From Gillisia sp. (GTDB lineage Bacteria; Bacteroidota; Bacteroidia; Flavobacteriales; Flavobacteriaceae): a stretch of 38,252 nt of DNA. The stretch covers positions 1 to 38,252 of the forward strand of contig JAGXIJ010000098.1 in NCBI GenBank assembly GCA_024635675.1, in the 5' to 3' direction. Each line of letters starts with the position of its first letter. Within the stretch, counting starts at the first letter, position 1. Both the position numbers and the translations under genes were made by a program. Shown here piece after piece: positions 24,983-36,954 of the stretch. The notes beneath the pieces are model-generated. The model saw only the letters and a list, made by a program, of their open reading frames with translations, made no database searches and was not told the DNA's origin.

Positions 24983-25840
24983 ATGATATTAATTGCTGAT
25001 GGAGGTTCCACCAAATGTGACTGGATCCTTCTAAATAATAAAGGGGAACTGGTATTTCAAACACGTTCAAAGGGATTAAATCCTGCAGTATTTCCGGAAG
25101 CGATGCTGGAACAACGAATTGAAGAAAATCCTGAACTTTTTGAAGTTAGGGATAAGATTGAAAGAGTTCATTTTTTTGGTGCAGGTTGTGGCACAGAAAT
25201 CCCTAGGAAACTCTTGCAGGACATAATTGCTAATTTCTTTACAAATGCTTCAGAGGTATTGGTGAAGGAAGATATGGTGGCAGCAGCATATGCCGCTACC
25301 ACCGAGCCTGGGATTGTTTGTATTCTGGGGACAGGGTCAAATAGTTGTTATTTCGACGGAAAGGAAGTTCACATGGCAGTGGAGTCTTTAGGTTATGTCC
25401 TCATGGATGAAGCCAGCGGGAATTACTTTGGGAAACGTTTATTAAGAGATTATTATTACAAAAGAATGCCCCCGGATATCGCTGCGAAATTTGAAAAAGA
25501 TTTCGATGTAAGTGGCGATGAGATCAAAAAGAACCTTTATAAGAAAGAAAATCCAAACACATATTTAGCTTCTTTTGCGGAATTCATTTTCACAAATGAG
25601 CGTAATGGATATTTTTATAAGTTGGTACACGAAGGTATTAAGGAATTCATGCACACCCGAGTACTTTCTATTAAGCACGCTCAAACAGTACCAATCCATT
25701 TTATAGGAAGTATTGCATATTTTAGTCAGGATATTATTAGAGCAGTTGCCCAACCTTATAATCTTGAGATAGGGAATATTATTCGTAGGCCCATAGATGC
25801 ACTTATAGAACATTACCGAAAAAATGTGTTAAAAGGCTAA
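24983..25840 (+). CDS. BadF/BadG/BcrA/BcrD-type ATPase, N-acetylglucosamine-kinase-like
   Basis: 285 aa; ILIADGGSTKCDWILLNNKGE, GIVCILGTGSNSCYFDGKEV, GYVLMDEASGNYFGKRLLRDYYY. Confidence 0.85.
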   Translation: MILIADGGSTKCDWILLNNKGELVFQTRSKGLNPAVFPEAMLEQRIEENPELFEVRDKIERVHFFGAGCGTEIPRKLLQDIIANFFTNASEVLVKEDMVAAAYAATTEPGIVCILGTGSNSCYFDGKEVHMAVESLGYVLMDEASGNYFGKRLLRDYYYKRMPPDIAAKFEKDFDVSGDEIKKNLYKKENPNTYLASFAEFIFTNERNGYFYKLVHEGIKEFMHTRVLSIKHAQTVPIHFIGSIAYFSQDIIRAVAQPYNLEIGNIIRRPIDALIEHYRKNVLKG

Positions 25841-31376: not shown

Positions 31377-32229
31377 GATAGCCGTTTTACTCCCGGGTTT
31401 ATATTCGACTATTCAGGATATGGGAAGACTTAATTTTAGAAAATTTGGAGTGCCTCTAAGTGGAGTTATGGATTCTTTTGCTGCCAAAAAAGCTAACCTT
31501 CTTTTATCGAATTCAGAGTTTTCTCCTGTCATGGAAATAACCCAACTGGGTCCTAAATTAAAATTTTCCGGGCCTACGCTAATTTCAATTTGTGGTGCGT
31601 TCTTGAGCCCTAAAATAAATGATGAGCTTGTTAATAATAATAAACCACTTTCAATTTACAAGGGAGATGTACTATCCTTTGGGAAAAGAATTATAGGATG
31701 TAGAGCATACCTTGCTATATCCGGTGGTTTTAATTCTGAAAAGGTGCTGGGGAGTGCCAGCTGGTATCATGGAATTACAGAGAGGGGACTATTACAAAAA
31801 GGGAGCCTACTTAAATTCACTAATTTTAATAGCCCATCTTATAATTTAAACTCGAGTATAAAAGTTGATACCAAATATATAAGTGATGTGAAGGTAAAGG
31901 TTTTTAAAGGGCCGGAATATGAATTGCTTACAATTTCTCAGCAAAAATCCCTTTTAGGGTTGGGGTTTAGTATAGATCTAAATAATAACAGGATGGCCAT
32001 TCAACTAAAAGAAGTTTTAGAAAACGAACTTAAACCTATAATTACCGGTCCGGTACTGCCGGGTACAGTTCAGTTAACGCCATCGGGAAAAATAATTATT
32101 TTAATGCGCGATTGTCAAACTACAGGTGGCTACCCAAGAATATTGCAACTTAGTGAAAATGGAATGAATACACTGGCGCAAAAAGTTGTTGGGGAAGCTA
32201 TCAAGTTTCAGTTAATTGAAATAAATTGA
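31357..32229 (+). CDS. pxpC: 5-oxoprolinase subunit C (KipA-like; biotin-dependent carboxyltransferase family)
   Basis: 290 aa; GLYSTIQDMGRLNFRKFGVPLSGVMDSFAAKKANLLLSN, YLAISGGFN, PVLPGTVQLTPSGKIIILMRDCQTTGGYPRI. The true start may be ATG 31369. Confidence 0.93.
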   Translation: MKNIMGEIAVLLPGLYSTIQDMGRLNFRKFGVPLSGVMDSFAAKKANLLLSNSEFSPVMEITQLGPKLKFSGPTLISICGAFLSPKINDELVNNNKPLSIYKGDVLSFGKRIIGCRAYLAISGGFNSEKVLGSASWYHGITERGLLQKGSLLKFTNFNSPSYNLNSSIKVDTKYISDVKVKVFKGPEYELLTISQQKSLLGLGFSIDLNNNRMAIQLKEVLENELKPIITGPVLPGTVQLTPSGKIIILMRDCQTTGGYPRILQLSENGMNTLAQKVVGEAIKFQLIEIN

Positions 32230-32236
32230 AGAAGTT

Positions 32237-32430
32237 CACGTTTAAGAAATGACACAGGGTTAAAATAAAAAAAAGTGTCAATTAAACGTGGTTCAAAGAT
32301 CTAAAGCCCTACCTAAAAATCGATTTACACTTTTAACGACACTTTTTTAACCCTAACTTTTTAAGCTAATTAAATTAATACTCAAATTTAGGTGTGAAAC
32401 GGAGGTTGTACAAGGGGAAAAACCCCCTTT
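32237..32430 (+). ncRNA. Candidate structured RNA unit 1 (divergent) of a tandem array
   Basis: Long-range stem AGGGTTAA..AAGTGTC (32256-32279) with GACACTT..TTAACCCT (32338-32354); loop motif GCCCTACCTAAAAATCGATTTACAC; terminal hairpin CAAGGGGAAAAACCCCCTTT (32411-32430). Confidence 0.5.
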
Positions 32431-32436
32431 CTTGAT

Positions 32437-32661
32437 GGTCTCATTTTTGATGAAACCTATTAAGTAAACTACTATTCCACAACTTATATTAGGAATGAAA
32501 TAAAAAGGGTGTCGTTTTTGTGTATTTAGATCTTTTATCGACCCCACCCAATAATAGATCACACATCTACGACACTTCTTTTTTTTAACACTTAAAGCGT
32601 TTATTTCAATCCAAAAGTACTTTCCTGCCAGAAGCCTTACAAGGGGCTTTTTCCCTTTTTT
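32437..32661 (+). ncRNA. Candidate structured RNA unit 2 of a tandem array
   Basis: 5' hairpin GGTCTCATTTTTGATGAAACC (32437-32457); stem GTGTCGT..ACGACAC; loop CCCCACCCAATAATAGATCACACA; terminal hairpin AAGGGGCTTTTTCCCTTTTTT. Confidence 0.6.
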
Positions 32662-32664
32662 AAC

Positions 32665-32890
32665 GGTCTTAATTTTGACGAGACCTATTAAGAAAGAATT
32701 ATTAACCTATAGCTTATGTTAGGAATGAAATAAAGAAGTGTCGTTTTTGTGTTTATAATTTTCTTATCGGCCCCACCCAATAATAGATCACACATCTACG
32801 GCACTTCTTTTTTTTAACACTTAAAGCGTTTATTTCAATCCAAAAGTACTTTCCTACCAGAAGCCTTACAAGGGGCTTTTTCCCTTTTTT
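32665..32890 (+). ncRNA. Candidate structured RNA unit 3 of a tandem array
   Basis: 5' hairpin GGTCTTAATTTTGACGAGACC (32665-32685); stem GAAGTGTCGT..ACGGCACTTC; loop CCCCACCCAATAATAGATCACACA; terminal hairpin AAGGGGCTTTTTCCCTTTTTT (32870-32890). Confidence 0.6.
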
Positions 32891-33098
32891 ATAGATTTAT
32901 ATTATAATCAAATTAAAAATTTTATTCAAAAGAGTTTGAAAGAAAAGTGCCGACTTGCAAATTGAATTATTAAAAGCCCTATCTAATAATAACTCACACA
33001 AAACCAGCACTTTTTAGTCTTTATCACTTTAGATAAACTAAAATGTTAGTACAACATTAAATTTAGCTTTACAGTTCCTCAAGGGGATTTTTCCCCTA
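32891..33098 (+). ncRNA. Candidate structured RNA unit 4 (divergent) of a tandem array
   Basis: Stem AAAAGTGC..GCACTTTT; loop GCCCTATCTAATAATAACTCACACA; terminal hairpin AAGGGGATTTTTCCCCT (33081-33097). Confidence 0.5.
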
Positions 33099-33192
33099 TT
33101 TGACTTCGTTATTCCAATTTTGTTACATAAAAAATCTATTTTTAACAAAAATTATTGACTAATGAATCTTTTATTAATAGAAATTCAATAAT

Positions 33193-33567
33193 ATGGGTAA
33201 AAAAATTACAGTTGCAAAGGCAAAACAATTACAAAAAAAATGGTGGAATACCAGATTAAATGTTACCACAAATGGTAAAAAACATGAAGATACCTGCCAG
33301 TTTTATTTTACAGTAGATGAACTTCAAACATTCTTGGCCGAGGTAAAGACCAAGTCTTTACAGCAAGGTGTGGAAACTCCAGGAATAAATATCTGGTTTG
33401 GGGCTTATGATGCTACCGCAACAGAACCTAGTTTGGCTACGGTATTTTTTGCGGCAACCAAAAGAGTAAAGTCTGATGATCCTGAGTTGGAATACGAAGA
33501 TGTTGCTAATGATGAGATAGAACCCTTTAATGATGGTAGCGGATTATGGCCTCCTGGAGAATATTAA
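33193..33567 (+). CDS. Uncharacterised 124-aa protein with conserved-looking GLWPPGEY C-terminus
   Basis: Open ATG-TAA frame; its C-terminal ~26 aa is repeated at 34521-34607 and, more loosely, at 34319-34390, supporting the reading frame. Confidence 0.8.
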   Translation: MGKKITVAKAKQLQKKWWNTRLNVTTNGKKHEDTCQFYFTVDELQTFLAEVKTKSLQQGVETPGINIWFGAYDATATEPSLATVFFAATKRVKSDDPELEYEDVANDEIEPFNDGSGLWPPGEY

Positions 33568-33582
33568 ATTCCACAAAATAAT

Positions 33583-34332
33583 ATGCTGGATTTTATAATA
33601 GAAAACAAAATTTATGTTACTTATATATTTGAATTAATTGCAGCCTTAAGTGGTAGTTATTATTTAATTAAAACTCCAAACGCACGAAAGGAAATTATAT
33701 ATTTCTCATGGTTTTTATGGTTTGTGCTTCTGGTAGACCTTAGTGGGGCATACGCTCTATGGGCTTATTTTGATGATTACAAAACCTTTCCTTTTTTGGA
33801 AGATTCATTATTTACTCGAAATGTCTGGTTGTATAATTGGCTTAATCTTATAAGCATTTCATTTTATAGTTATCTTATTATCAAACAGATTATAAGAATT
33901 AAGTATAAAGGAATTTTAAAATTCGCTTTAGTTGGTTTTATACTGCTTGGGATATTCAAACTCACAAGTTCAGATCAATTATTCTACCGCTATGATATGT
34001 CCATTAAATTCGTGGGAGCATTGTTACTAATAATTGCAATTGGCATCTATTATTTTGAACTACTAATGAGTGATCAAATTTTGGATATAAAAAAGAATTT
34101 ACTTTTTTATATTTCTGTTGGTGTTATTATTTGGCATCTGTGCGTATTACCAATTCAACTTTATAGCGTTTATTTTTCCGTCGAAAATGTTGACTTTATC
34201 ATGATGTATGCTGCTATTTTAAGGTATTGCAACATATTTATGTATGGAATATTTTCATTTGCATTTATATATTGTGCGAATGGGAAGTCCAATTCAAAAA
34301 ACTTAGGAGGTGTAAAAAATGCGGAAAAATAA
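33583..34332 (+). CDS. Uncharacterised integral membrane protein, about 7 TM segments (copy 1)
   Basis: 249 aa with seven hydrophobic segments; strongly similar to the 254-aa protein at 34624-35388. Confidence 0.85.
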   Translation: MLDFIIENKIYVTYIFELIAALSGSYYLIKTPNARKEIIYFSWFLWFVLLVDLSGAYALWAYFDDYKTFPFLEDSLFTRNVWLYNWLNLISISFYSYLIIKQIIRIKYKGILKFALVGFILLGIFKLTSSDQLFYRYDMSIKFVGALLLIIAIGIYYFELLMSDQILDIKKNLLFYISVGVIIWHLCVLPIQLYSVYFSVENVDFIMMYAAILRYCNIFMYGIFSFAFIYCANGKSNSKNLGGVKNAEK

Positions 34333-34390: not shown

Positions 34391-34560
34391 TGGATATAAA
34401 TATTTTTCTTACTATTCTGCTAGAAGGTTGTTGTGCGATTGCGGGATTTTATTACATAAATAAAAATTCAGAAAATAAGTCAAATAAACTTTTGACTTAT
34501 TTTTTGCTTTTCATCAAAAAATGGAGTTGGAATTTAAACATATTACCAATGATACTATAG
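34390..34560 (+). pseudogene. Truncated 7-TM protein (N-terminal region only)
   Basis: MDINIFLTILLEGCCAIAGFYYINKNSENKSNKLLTYFLLFIKKWSW... aligns with MLDFIIENKIYVTYIFELIAALSGSYYLIKTPNARKEIIYFSWFLWF of the intact copies, then is interrupted. Confidence 0.6.
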
Positions 34561-34607
34561 AACCATTTAATAAAGGTGGTGGATTATGGCCCCCAGGAGA
34601 ATATTAA
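34521..34607 (+). pseudogene. Truncated duplicate (C-terminal 28 aa) of the 124-aa protein
   Basis: MELEFKHITNDTIEPFNKGGGLWPPGEY*, compare ...ELEYEDVANDEIEPFNDGSGLWPPGEY* at 33193-33567. Confidence 0.7.
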
Positions 34608-34623
34608 ATTATAGAAGAAATAC

Positions 34624-35388
34624 ATGCTGGATTTTATAATTGAACACAAAATATATGTAGGTTATATATTTGAATTAATTGCGGCCTTAAGTGGAGGTTA
34701 TTACTTATTGAAAACACCAAATGTGCAGAGTGAAATTAAATATTTTTCTTGGTTTTTATGGTATGTCTTTTTGTTAGATTTTAGTAGTTTGTATGCATTG
34801 TGGGCATTTTTTGATGATTATAAAACATTTCCATTTTTAGAAGATTCTTTATTTACTCGAAATGTATGGTTACACAACTGGAATCATTTGATAAGTCTTT
34901 CATTTTATATTTTTCTATTTATTAAACAACTTAGGATACTTAGTTATAAAAGAATTTTAAAGTTTGCTTTGCTTTTTTTTATACTATTTGGAATATTTAA
35001 TTTGACAAGTTCTAATCAGTTATTCTTTACCTACGATATGTCGATTCTTATTGTAGGGGTATTATTGCTAATTATCGCTATTGCCAGTTATTATTTTGAA
35101 CTGCTAATGAGTGACCAAGTTTTAGATTTTAAGAGGAATTTATTGTTTTACACTTCTGTGGGCCTTCTCATTTGGCACCTTTGTGTGCCACCAATTCAAA
35201 TTTATAGTGCTTACTTTTCATTTGAAAATGCAGATTTTATTAAAATGCATAACACTATTTTAAGGTATAGCAATATTTTTATGTATGGCATGTTTTCATT
35301 TGGGTTTATTTATTGTGCGCAGCAAAAACAACTTTCAGAGTTTGCAAAAAAAAGAATGCTTGATAAACCAGAAATCAGAGATTTTTGA
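34624..35388 (+). CDS. Uncharacterised integral membrane protein, about 7 TM segments (copy 2)
   Basis: 254 aa paralog of 33583-34332 (shared MLDFIIE.KIYV.YIFELIAALSG.YYL.KTPN, FFDDYKTFPFLEDSLFTRNVWL.NW, YYFELLMSDQ.LD). Confidence 0.85.
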   Translation: MLDFIIEHKIYVGYIFELIAALSGGYYLLKTPNVQSEIKYFSWFLWYVFLLDFSSLYALWAFFDDYKTFPFLEDSLFTRNVWLHNWNHLISLSFYIFLFIKQLRILSYKRILKFALLFFILFGIFNLTSSNQLFFTYDMSILIVGVLLLIIAIASYYFELLMSDQVLDFKRNLLFYTSVGLLIWHLCVPPIQIYSAYFSFENADFIKMHNTILRYSNIFMYGMFSFGFIYCAQQKQLSEFAKKRMLDKPEIRDF

Positions 35389-35543: not shown

Positions 35544-36350
35544 ATGCTTGCCAAAGAAGAACTTTTACTAATTGTTTACTTTATCGTGGTTATTTTATTC
35601 CTGACCAGTTTTGCGATTATTTTCTTTATTACTTTCCAAAAACGTAAGAATAAATTGCTCCAGGAAAAATTTGAAGCCGAAACCCGTTTCGAAAATGAGT
35701 TGGCACAATCTAAAATTGAGATCCAGGAACAAACCCTTAAAAATGTAAGTTGGGAACTTCATGATAATATCGGGCAACTCCTCTCTGTTGCAAATATGCA
35801 ATTGAATATATTGTCGGGTTCCATAGATGCTTCAGCTAAACAATCTGTTAAAGATATTAAGGAAGTGGTGGCCAGTTCCTTACAAGAAGTGAGATCCTTA
35901 TCTAAATCGCTTAATAATGAAGTGGTTGGATATAGCGGAATAGAGGCTTCTATAAAAAATGAATTATTGCGATTTGAACGTCTTAATAATCTTGAAACTG
36001 AAATTAATAGTAGTGGGGAACCCTTCGAAATTATCGACAAAGATTCTATTATACTCTTTAGAATAATTCAAGAATTTTTCTCCAATGTCATTAAGCATGC
36101 CCATGCCACTAAAATTCAAGTGAACATACAATACTTTCATGAAGAGTTACAAATTGAGATAAGAGACAACGGGCAAGGTTTTAATACAGAAGAAGTTACT
36201 AAAAGTTCTGGTTTGCTTAATATGGAAAGTCGGGCAGCACTTATAAATACTAAGTTTAGCTTAAATTCTATACAAGGAGAAGGTACATCCTTAATTCTAA
36301 ATCACCCATTAAAGCCCTCGCTATATGAAAAAAACGATACTAATCGTTGA
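35544..36350 (+). CDS. NarX/DegS-type sensor histidine kinase with a single N-terminal TM and no recognisable sensor domain
   Basis: 268 aa; hydrophobic N-terminus, HisKA_3 motif NVSWELHDNIGQLLSVANMQLN, HATPase region FFSNVIKHAHATKIQV, IEIRDNGQGFN, GLLNMESRAALI. Confidence 0.93.
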   Translation: MLAKEELLLIVYFIVVILFLTSFAIIFFITFQKRKNKLLQEKFEAETRFENELAQSKIEIQEQTLKNVSWELHDNIGQLLSVANMQLNILSGSIDASAKQSVKDIKEVVASSLQEVRSLSKSLNNEVVGYSGIEASIKNELLRFERLNNLETEINSSGEPFEIIDKDSIILFRIIQEFFSNVIKHAHATKIQVNIQYFHEELQIEIRDNGQGFNTEEVTKSSGLLNMESRAALINTKFSLNSIQGEGTSLILNHPLKPSLYEKNDTNR

Positions 36351-36954
36351 TGATCACACTCTGTTCGCACAATCGCTTCAAGGCCTTTTAAATTCCTTTC
36401 AGGAATATGAGGTGATCAATGTTTTTAAGCATGGACAGGAATTGGTGGACTATTTTAATGCAAATAAAAAACGCCCCGATATCTTGTTGTTAGACATTCG
36501 AATGCCGGTAATGGATGGATTGGCTACTATGTCCTGGTTAAAAGAAAATTTCCCTAATCAAAAGACCTTAGCCTTAACAATGGAACATGATGAGGAGACC
36601 ATTATTAAAATGATAAGGATGGGATGTAGAGGATACTTGTTAAAAGATATTGAACCAGATGAATTCTTGTATGCCTTGGAATCTGTGGCTACCAGCGGGT
36701 ATTATTTTAGCAAGGAAGTTGTAGAAGTAATGGACCATCCATCCCCTAAAAATTATGGAAATCTAAGTGATCGTGAAATGGAATTCTTAAACTATTCCTG
36801 TTCTGAGAAAACATATAAAGAGGTTGCCGAGGAAATGAATTTAAGCCCAAAGACTATAGATAACTATCGGGAAAGTGTTTTTTCTAAACTTCAAGTGAAA
36901 AGTAGGGTAGGAATGGTGCTTTTTGCCGTGAAGAATGATATTGTAAGGCTTTAA
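36325..36954 (+). CDS. NarL/LuxR-family response regulator
   Basis: 209 aa; KKTILIVDDHTLFAQSLQGLL, DILLLDIRMPVMDGL, GCRGYLLKDIEPDEFL; HTH LSDREMEFLNYSCSEKTYKEVAEEMNLSPKTIDNYRESVFSKL. Confidence 0.95.
   Translation: MKKTILIVDDHTLFAQSLQGLLNSFQEYEVINVFKHGQELVDYFNANKKRPDILLLDIRMPVMDGLATMSWLKENFPNQKTLALTMEHDEETIIKMIRMGCRGYLLKDIEPDEFLYALESVATSGYYFSKEVVEVMDHPSPKNYGNLSDREMEFLNYSCSEKTYKEVAEEMNLSPKTIDNYRESVFSKLQVKSRVGMVLFAVKNDIVRL

Follow-up and report, generated by a model that had tools for sequence, protein, structure and literature searches.

Four probable small-RNA genes in tandem beside a two-component operon of Gillisia and related marine Flavobacteriaceae

What does the gap between pxpC and the gene for a 124-aa protein (p124) encode in Gillisia sp.? 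The first-pass annotation of the window (the whole stretch of 38,252 nucleotides analysed here) had described positions 32237-33098 as four repeats without a credible open reading frame, and both statements hold. The loop motif CCCNAYCYAATAAT, allowing at most one mismatch, lies at 32307, 32542, 32771 and 32977, i.e. at spacings of 235, 229 and 206, with 0.35 chance sites expected over the whole window; a further, unrelated match lies at 25749. Over 154 nt (32509-32662 and 32738-32891), units 2 and 3 share 94% identity, and the alignment of all four units spans about 200 columns with a mean identity of 71%. The sole frame in the gap is a mechanical, not credible 69-aa ORF on the minus strand, and no ATG-initiated ORF of at least 20 aa was found inside any of 71 aligned units. 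We consider it likely that the array consists of four independent small-RNA (sRNA) genes that are read from the minus strand and have separate promoters (Table 1), that the linked kinase and response regulator activate these multiple copies through a palindrome and that the sRNAs act in trans at the post-transcriptional level; this judgement applies to all parts jointly.

Table 1. Predicted elements of the array and the neighbouring genes, in window coordinates
Feature	Position	Strand	Remarks
sRNA gene 1, type A paralogue	32269..32378	-	adjoins pxpC; model match 83.5 bits; predicted TSS ~32378 (placed from -7 box); terminator T-run near 32269
sRNA 1 promoter, TTG-N20-TAAATTTG	32383..32413	-	
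sRNA 1 palindromic candidate operator (AAGGGG..CCCCT)	32412..32429	none	
sRNA gene 2, type B	32503..32607	-	model match 32503-32612, 69.8 bits; predicted TSS ~32607
sRNA 2 promoter, TTG-N20-TACTTTTG	32612..32642	-	
sRNA 2 palindromic candidate operator	32641..32657	none	
sRNA gene 3, type B	32732..32836	-	model match 32732-32841, 70.5 bits; predicted TSS ~32836; recent duplicate of gene 2, judged from the unit tree
sRNA 3 promoter, TTG-N20-TACTTTTG	32841..32871	-	
sRNA 3 palindromic candidate operator	32870..32886	none	
sRNA gene 4, type C	32941..33047	-	model match 83.8 bits; predicted TSS ~33047
sRNA 4 promoter, TTG-N20-TAATGTTG	33052..33082	-	weaker -7 box
sRNA 4 palindromic candidate operator	33081..33098	none	between the divergent sRNA 4 and p124 genes
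p124, 124-aa protein	33193..33567	+	no Pfam family at 0.001
p249	33583..34332	+	hydrophobic, probably multi-pass membrane protein; without known family
p254	34624..35388	+	paralogue of p249 (74% identical)
Sensor histidine kinase	35544..36350	+	HisKA_3 and HATPase_c; one N-terminal hydrophobic segment
NarL/GacA-type response regulator	36325..36954	+	Response_reg and GerE; proposed palindrome binder

Read on the minus strand, each unit has the order palindrome, TTG -33 box, 20-bp spacer, TAnnTTTG -7 box and RNA. The predicted RNA starts about 5 bases past the -7 box, at or beside a conserved UCAUUUUAG, and its roughly 105 nt comprise a 5' hairpin (P1), a linker and a long terminator-like hairpin (P2, AAAGUGUCG...CGGCACUUUUUU) that ends in a U-run. 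The linker is UUUUGGGG in 36 of the 71 units, and the linker TTTTGGGG is absent from 35. The P2 hexaloop is GUAGGG in 62 units, GUGGGG in 8 and AUAGGG in one, and the stems covary. The "CCC..AATAATA loop" of the first reading is the complement of this loop, which is GURGGG on the minus strand.

The idea that the units are structured RNAs under selection for structure, diverged in sequence with a retained architecture, is supported by covariation in two alignments. When 31 Gillisia units were aligned with MAFFT, blind to structure, 85.3% of the cells were paired and covariation scored 0.284, compared with 0.143 after shuffling. In the 71-sequence alignment, which was fitted to the covariance model and so is biased toward it, 89.9% of the cells were paired, the covariation score was 0.460 (shuffled 0.192) and there were 279 double-change cells (shuffled 90); slid-structure controls on this alignment gave 35-54% paired cells. 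Two-sided changes occur in 7 of 7 P1 pairs and in 11 of 11 inner-P2 pairs. The model itself contains a hand-placed structure, which replaced a first version, derived with RNAalifold from an alignment blind to structure, that kept only 5 pairs. A predicted RNA of about 105 nt with two hairpins, the 3' one resembling an intrinsic terminator, is thus shown by sequence comparison to be maintained by compensatory change. The sequence shows general attributes of an autonomous sRNA gene: a predicted promoter of its own, a conserved structure, a terminator-like end and no ORF.

The first-pass annotation had read the units on the plus strand. Inverted-repeat stems fold on that strand as well and weaker plus-strand model matches do exist, so an RNA read from the plus strand (four units, or one long structured p124 leader) could be considered. 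However, the paired columns of the 71-sequence alignment contain 200 G-U/U-G cells and 26 A-C/C-A cells in the minus-strand reading, and since these counts swap on the plus strand, they identify the minus strand as the RNA strand. Model scores are also lower on the plus strand: unit 4 reaches 83.8 bits on the minus strand, while the best plus-strand match in the genome has 39.4 bits. No conserved plus-strand promoter was seen before the units. The best model matches always lie on the strand opposite pxpC and the kinase, except in three loci of Salegentibacter, where the sRNA gene is inverted as a whole together with its promoter, and the palindrome moves with the promoter. Wobble counts and promoters led us to reject the plus-strand RNA, which we regard as extremely improbable.

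The AAGGGG-CCCCTT hairpin, initially taken for a part of the RNA, turned out to sit just upstream of the promoter, abutting the -33 box. In each unit, this 18-bp palindrome (AAGGGG-N6-CCCCTT) is directly joined to a sigma-A promoter of the Bacteroidota kind, TTG-N20-TAnnTTTG, which in its strict form, with a spacer of exactly 20, is present in 44 of the 71 units (shuffled mean 0.02); the sequence of the spacer is unconserved. The TAnnTTTG element occupies positions -12 to -5 in flavobacterial data (PMC9723704), and the centre of the palindrome is therefore expected at about -42. Its GGG and CCC cores are invariant in 65 of 65 anchored units, and its spacing to the -33 box is fixed in every one of them. 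A centre near -42 is the usual position of a class II activator site. Across the genus, palindrome and promoter together form a pattern that is almost exclusive to sRNA genes; the few matches elsewhere in the genus have 2-3 mismatches and are about as frequent as in the reversed-pattern control.

On the plus strand, the palindrome with its T-run (GGGG..CCCC) looks like a classic intrinsic terminator, and most loci have it downstream of pxpC. It may partly or wholly serve as one, in which case it would insulate the sRNA promoters and the sRNAs would be constitutive or otherwise controlled. The palindrome, however, is near-invariant across genera, without free covariation; its distance from the -33 box, to which it is joined, is also constant in all anchored units, and it moves with the promoter in the three inverted Salegentibacter loci. 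Aquimarina, moreover, keeps dyads that often occur as pairs about 24 bp apart, and a terminator needs no pairs. We consider this explanation unlikely.

These Aquimarina dyads, similar to AGGGG-N-CCCCT, were found in 19 of 20 loci about 180-240 bp before p124 (0.00 expected), and the same gene order continues at the operon. No sRNA was detected in the Aquimarina loci by the RNA model at E<=1. Because the palindrome is conserved before the same operon in a genus without a model-detected sRNA, it is probably the operator of the linked regulator, a view that combines gene neighbourhood with phylogenetic footprinting. The pattern also supports a candidate operator that is older than the sRNA or does not depend on it. 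Downstream of the dyads and before p124, Aquimarina loci (e.g. L155:8560-8860) contain a short, conserved inverted repeat (TACGGTTTTGCCGTA-like) that may represent another leader or sRNA. The strict dyad pattern has no match in the Aequorivita loci L159, L164 and L176; weaker dyads such as AGGAAAAACCCT are found at the corresponding place upstream of p124 and may represent a relaxed operator. On the plus strand, a conserved TATTTTTAAC element precedes p124 at 33140-33160 of the window and at the matching place elsewhere. It is probably the p124 operon's own -7 box, pointing away from the sRNA promoter.

How widely is this arrangement distributed? A nucleotide search gave convincing matches in same-genus genomes, and a first HMM pass found 1-4 units per genome in same-genus loci, in every case either between pxpC and the p124/p249/kinase/regulator genes or interspersed with the latter. 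The covariance model built from the units, a step proposed in the first-pass annotation, matched 16 of 16 Gillisia genomes. A protein search with the linked kinase retrieved Gillisia itself and named relatives, and 80 named loci were fetched; as these were obtained via the kinase, they alone cannot prove the linkage of sRNA and kinase. The sRNA is present in every Gillisia, Salegentibacter, Christiangramia/Gramella and Salinimicrobium locus of this set and, by the covariance model, in no Aquimarina or Aequorivita locus. Strong matches were restricted to four genera in samples of 301 and 400 genomes of the family (the latter scanned with a later model version, R3), under stricter filters that may miss more distant relatives. 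Weak matches of about 34-38 bits in other genera were left out of the counts, and the surroundings of two such matches, both examined, were without the locus.

The conserved position is between pxpC and an operon of p124, p249, the HisKA_3 kinase and the NarL-type regulator. Loci that were found via the RNA or its DNA adjoin the kinase/regulator pair wherever the contig reaches far enough. In one genus, a locus (L102) is ordered pxpC-sRNA-regulator, and nothing nearby matches the kinase, p124 or p249. The sRNA-p124-p249 module is found again in relatives; in Christiangramia, for example, the sRNA appears with such modules three times in L127. Since what is left of a second p124 gene (54% identity over 41 residues) lies at 34497-34604 of the window, immediately before p254, p124-p249 modules seem to duplicate and decay here too. 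The predicted structure of p124 is poor (pLDDT 63.5). Degenerate or truncated units beside intact ones (L042:4827-4900 and L031:3572-3707) look like decaying sRNA copies; in L042, pxpC is apparently broken into several frames. Farther off in the window (509-22780) lies a large glucan-utilisation locus with SusC/SusD-like proteins, alpha-amylases and a LacI-type regulator.

The first-pass annotation had also argued against a recent tandem duplication, which is right for most of the array but not for its middle. In a tree of the units, which is a guide only (short sequences, no tested support values), the first, middle and last window units group with their counterparts in several other Gillisia species, and units 2 and 3 are sister copies. 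Because units group by position across species, the tandem array appears to be older than those species. The tree supports mostly ancient paralogues, and by the same evidence units 2 and 3 are a recent duplication in this genome.

As for the mechanism, the linked histidine kinase and NarL/GacA-type response regulator would form the input. The regulator matches the MctR, NarL and UvrY/GacA models, all below cut-offs. It would bind AAGGGG-N6-CCCCTT centred at about -42 and activate transcription as a class II activator, activation rather than repression being suggested by position only. A dyad-binding regulator could instead repress the sRNA promoters, so that signalling turns the sRNAs off. The right palindrome arm CCCCTT does include the TT of the -33 box TTG, but a centre near -42 is where class II activators usually bind; the sequence itself is compatible with either sign, and we think repression improbable.

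Once activated by the regulator, as we prefer, the sRNA would act in trans through exposed G-rich segments, namely the GURGGG hexaloop and also, in units of the ancestral type, the UUUUGGGG linker. It would most likely base-pair with C-rich mRNA sites, e.g. CCCUAC/CCCCAAAA, and extra copies could raise the dose and allow the exposed segments to diverge. We prefer base-pairing to a protein sponge solely as the more common mode of action, and both fit the data. In the latter case, the same genes and regulator would produce an RNA that sequesters an RNA-binding protein via the hexaloop, in the manner of Rsm/Csr. The hexaloop is indeed nearly invariant while its stem covaries freely, and several copies under a GacA-like regulator with a 6-N6-6 palindrome recall the tandem rsmX genes of about 110 nt (PMC7911923). 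The hexaloop is, however, distinct from GGA, the motif found in Rsm RNAs (PMC7911923), and no protein emerged as a candidate. CsrA was not found in any of the 16 Gillisia genomes, which led us to reject a CsrA sponge. A sponge of some kind is conceivable but rather doubtful. An Hfq-type (Qrr-like) trans-acting sRNA was likewise rejected, as Hfq (PF17209) was not found in the same 16 genomes. It is also conceivable, if quite unlikely, that a CsrA- and Hfq-independent relay arose in one marine clade of the Flavobacteriaceae when a new sRNA promoter captured an ancient autoregulatory operator, of which Aquimarina would retain the form with no sRNA found by the model, the sRNAs then multiplying with p124-p249 and sequestering an RNA-binding protein via GURGGG.

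Under the preferred reading, with base-pairing sRNAs activated by the linked pair, this marine group probably runs a signal-to-small-RNA relay. To our knowledge, few Bacteroidota sRNAs have a known regulator, and the locus bears on how such sRNAs act without Hfq. A single locus in culturable marine genera brings together a strongly covarying RNA with predicted promoter elements and candidates for both operator and regulator, which makes the proposed pathway from signal to sRNA directly testable. The comparison of clades that have operator and sRNA with those that have the operator only suggests how an sRNA gene may join a two-component regulon.

The array represents a predicted small regulatory RNA family absent from Rfam. 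No Rfam 15 family matched the window on either strand at its curated gathering score. At E<=10, region 32150-33250 gave only chance-level matches to unrelated families (the Hatchet ribozyme and other sub-threshold cmscan matches were dismissed as such), as did the homologous regions of one Gillisia and one Salegentibacter genome. The suggestion of Flavo-1 (RF01705) failed. Flavo-1 is also a structured flavobacterial RNA, of 76 positions, but it has no match in the window at gathering (42 bits) or in 32150-33250 at E<=10; true copies are found on other contigs of this genome (C85 and C101). The same holds for 6S-Flavo (RF01685; gathering score 85 bits), likewise a flavobacterial small RNA of about 108 positions: the genome's own copy is on contig C106 (99.4 bits), and every Gillisia genome has it as a single copy elsewhere. 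A phage origin was discarded, as no similar phage DNA was found. A search of the open literature, with most subscription journals outside its reach, returned no description of the array sRNA. Rfp18 of Flavobacterium psychrophilum is another conserved flavobacterial regulatory sRNA. Its description, with at least three stem-loops (PMC9723704), differs from the array RNA, for which the R3 model gave strong matches in only four genera of the 400-genome sample.

Closer parallels exist in layout. RsmX, RsmY and RsmZ of Pseudomonas, which depend on GacA, are multicopy sRNAs of about 110 nt, with rsmX in tandem (PMC7911923, PMC2375449). They share with the array a conserved G-rich RNA motif and an upstream palindrome as the proposed site of a NarL/GacA-family regulator. 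Like Gac/Rsm-type sRNAs, the array RNA is small, multicopy and preceded by such a palindrome; the CsrA/RsmA-binding GGA motifs are lacking here, the hexaloop being GUAGGG, GUGGGG or AUAGGG, and no CsrA/Rsm protein was found in Gillisia. The sequences are unrelated, AAGGGG-N6-CCCCTT abuts the promoter in the array and the array's sRNA genes share a locus with those of the presumed regulator. The LisRK-controlled LhrC1-5 of Listeria resemble the array in their four clustered copies of 111-114 nt and in two-component control (PMC12101431). They have CU-rich motifs in place of the G-rich loop, while the array has Bacteroidota promoters and its regulator genes in the same locus. By layout, not by sequence, RsmX and LhrC1-5 are the closest working analogues of the proposed system.
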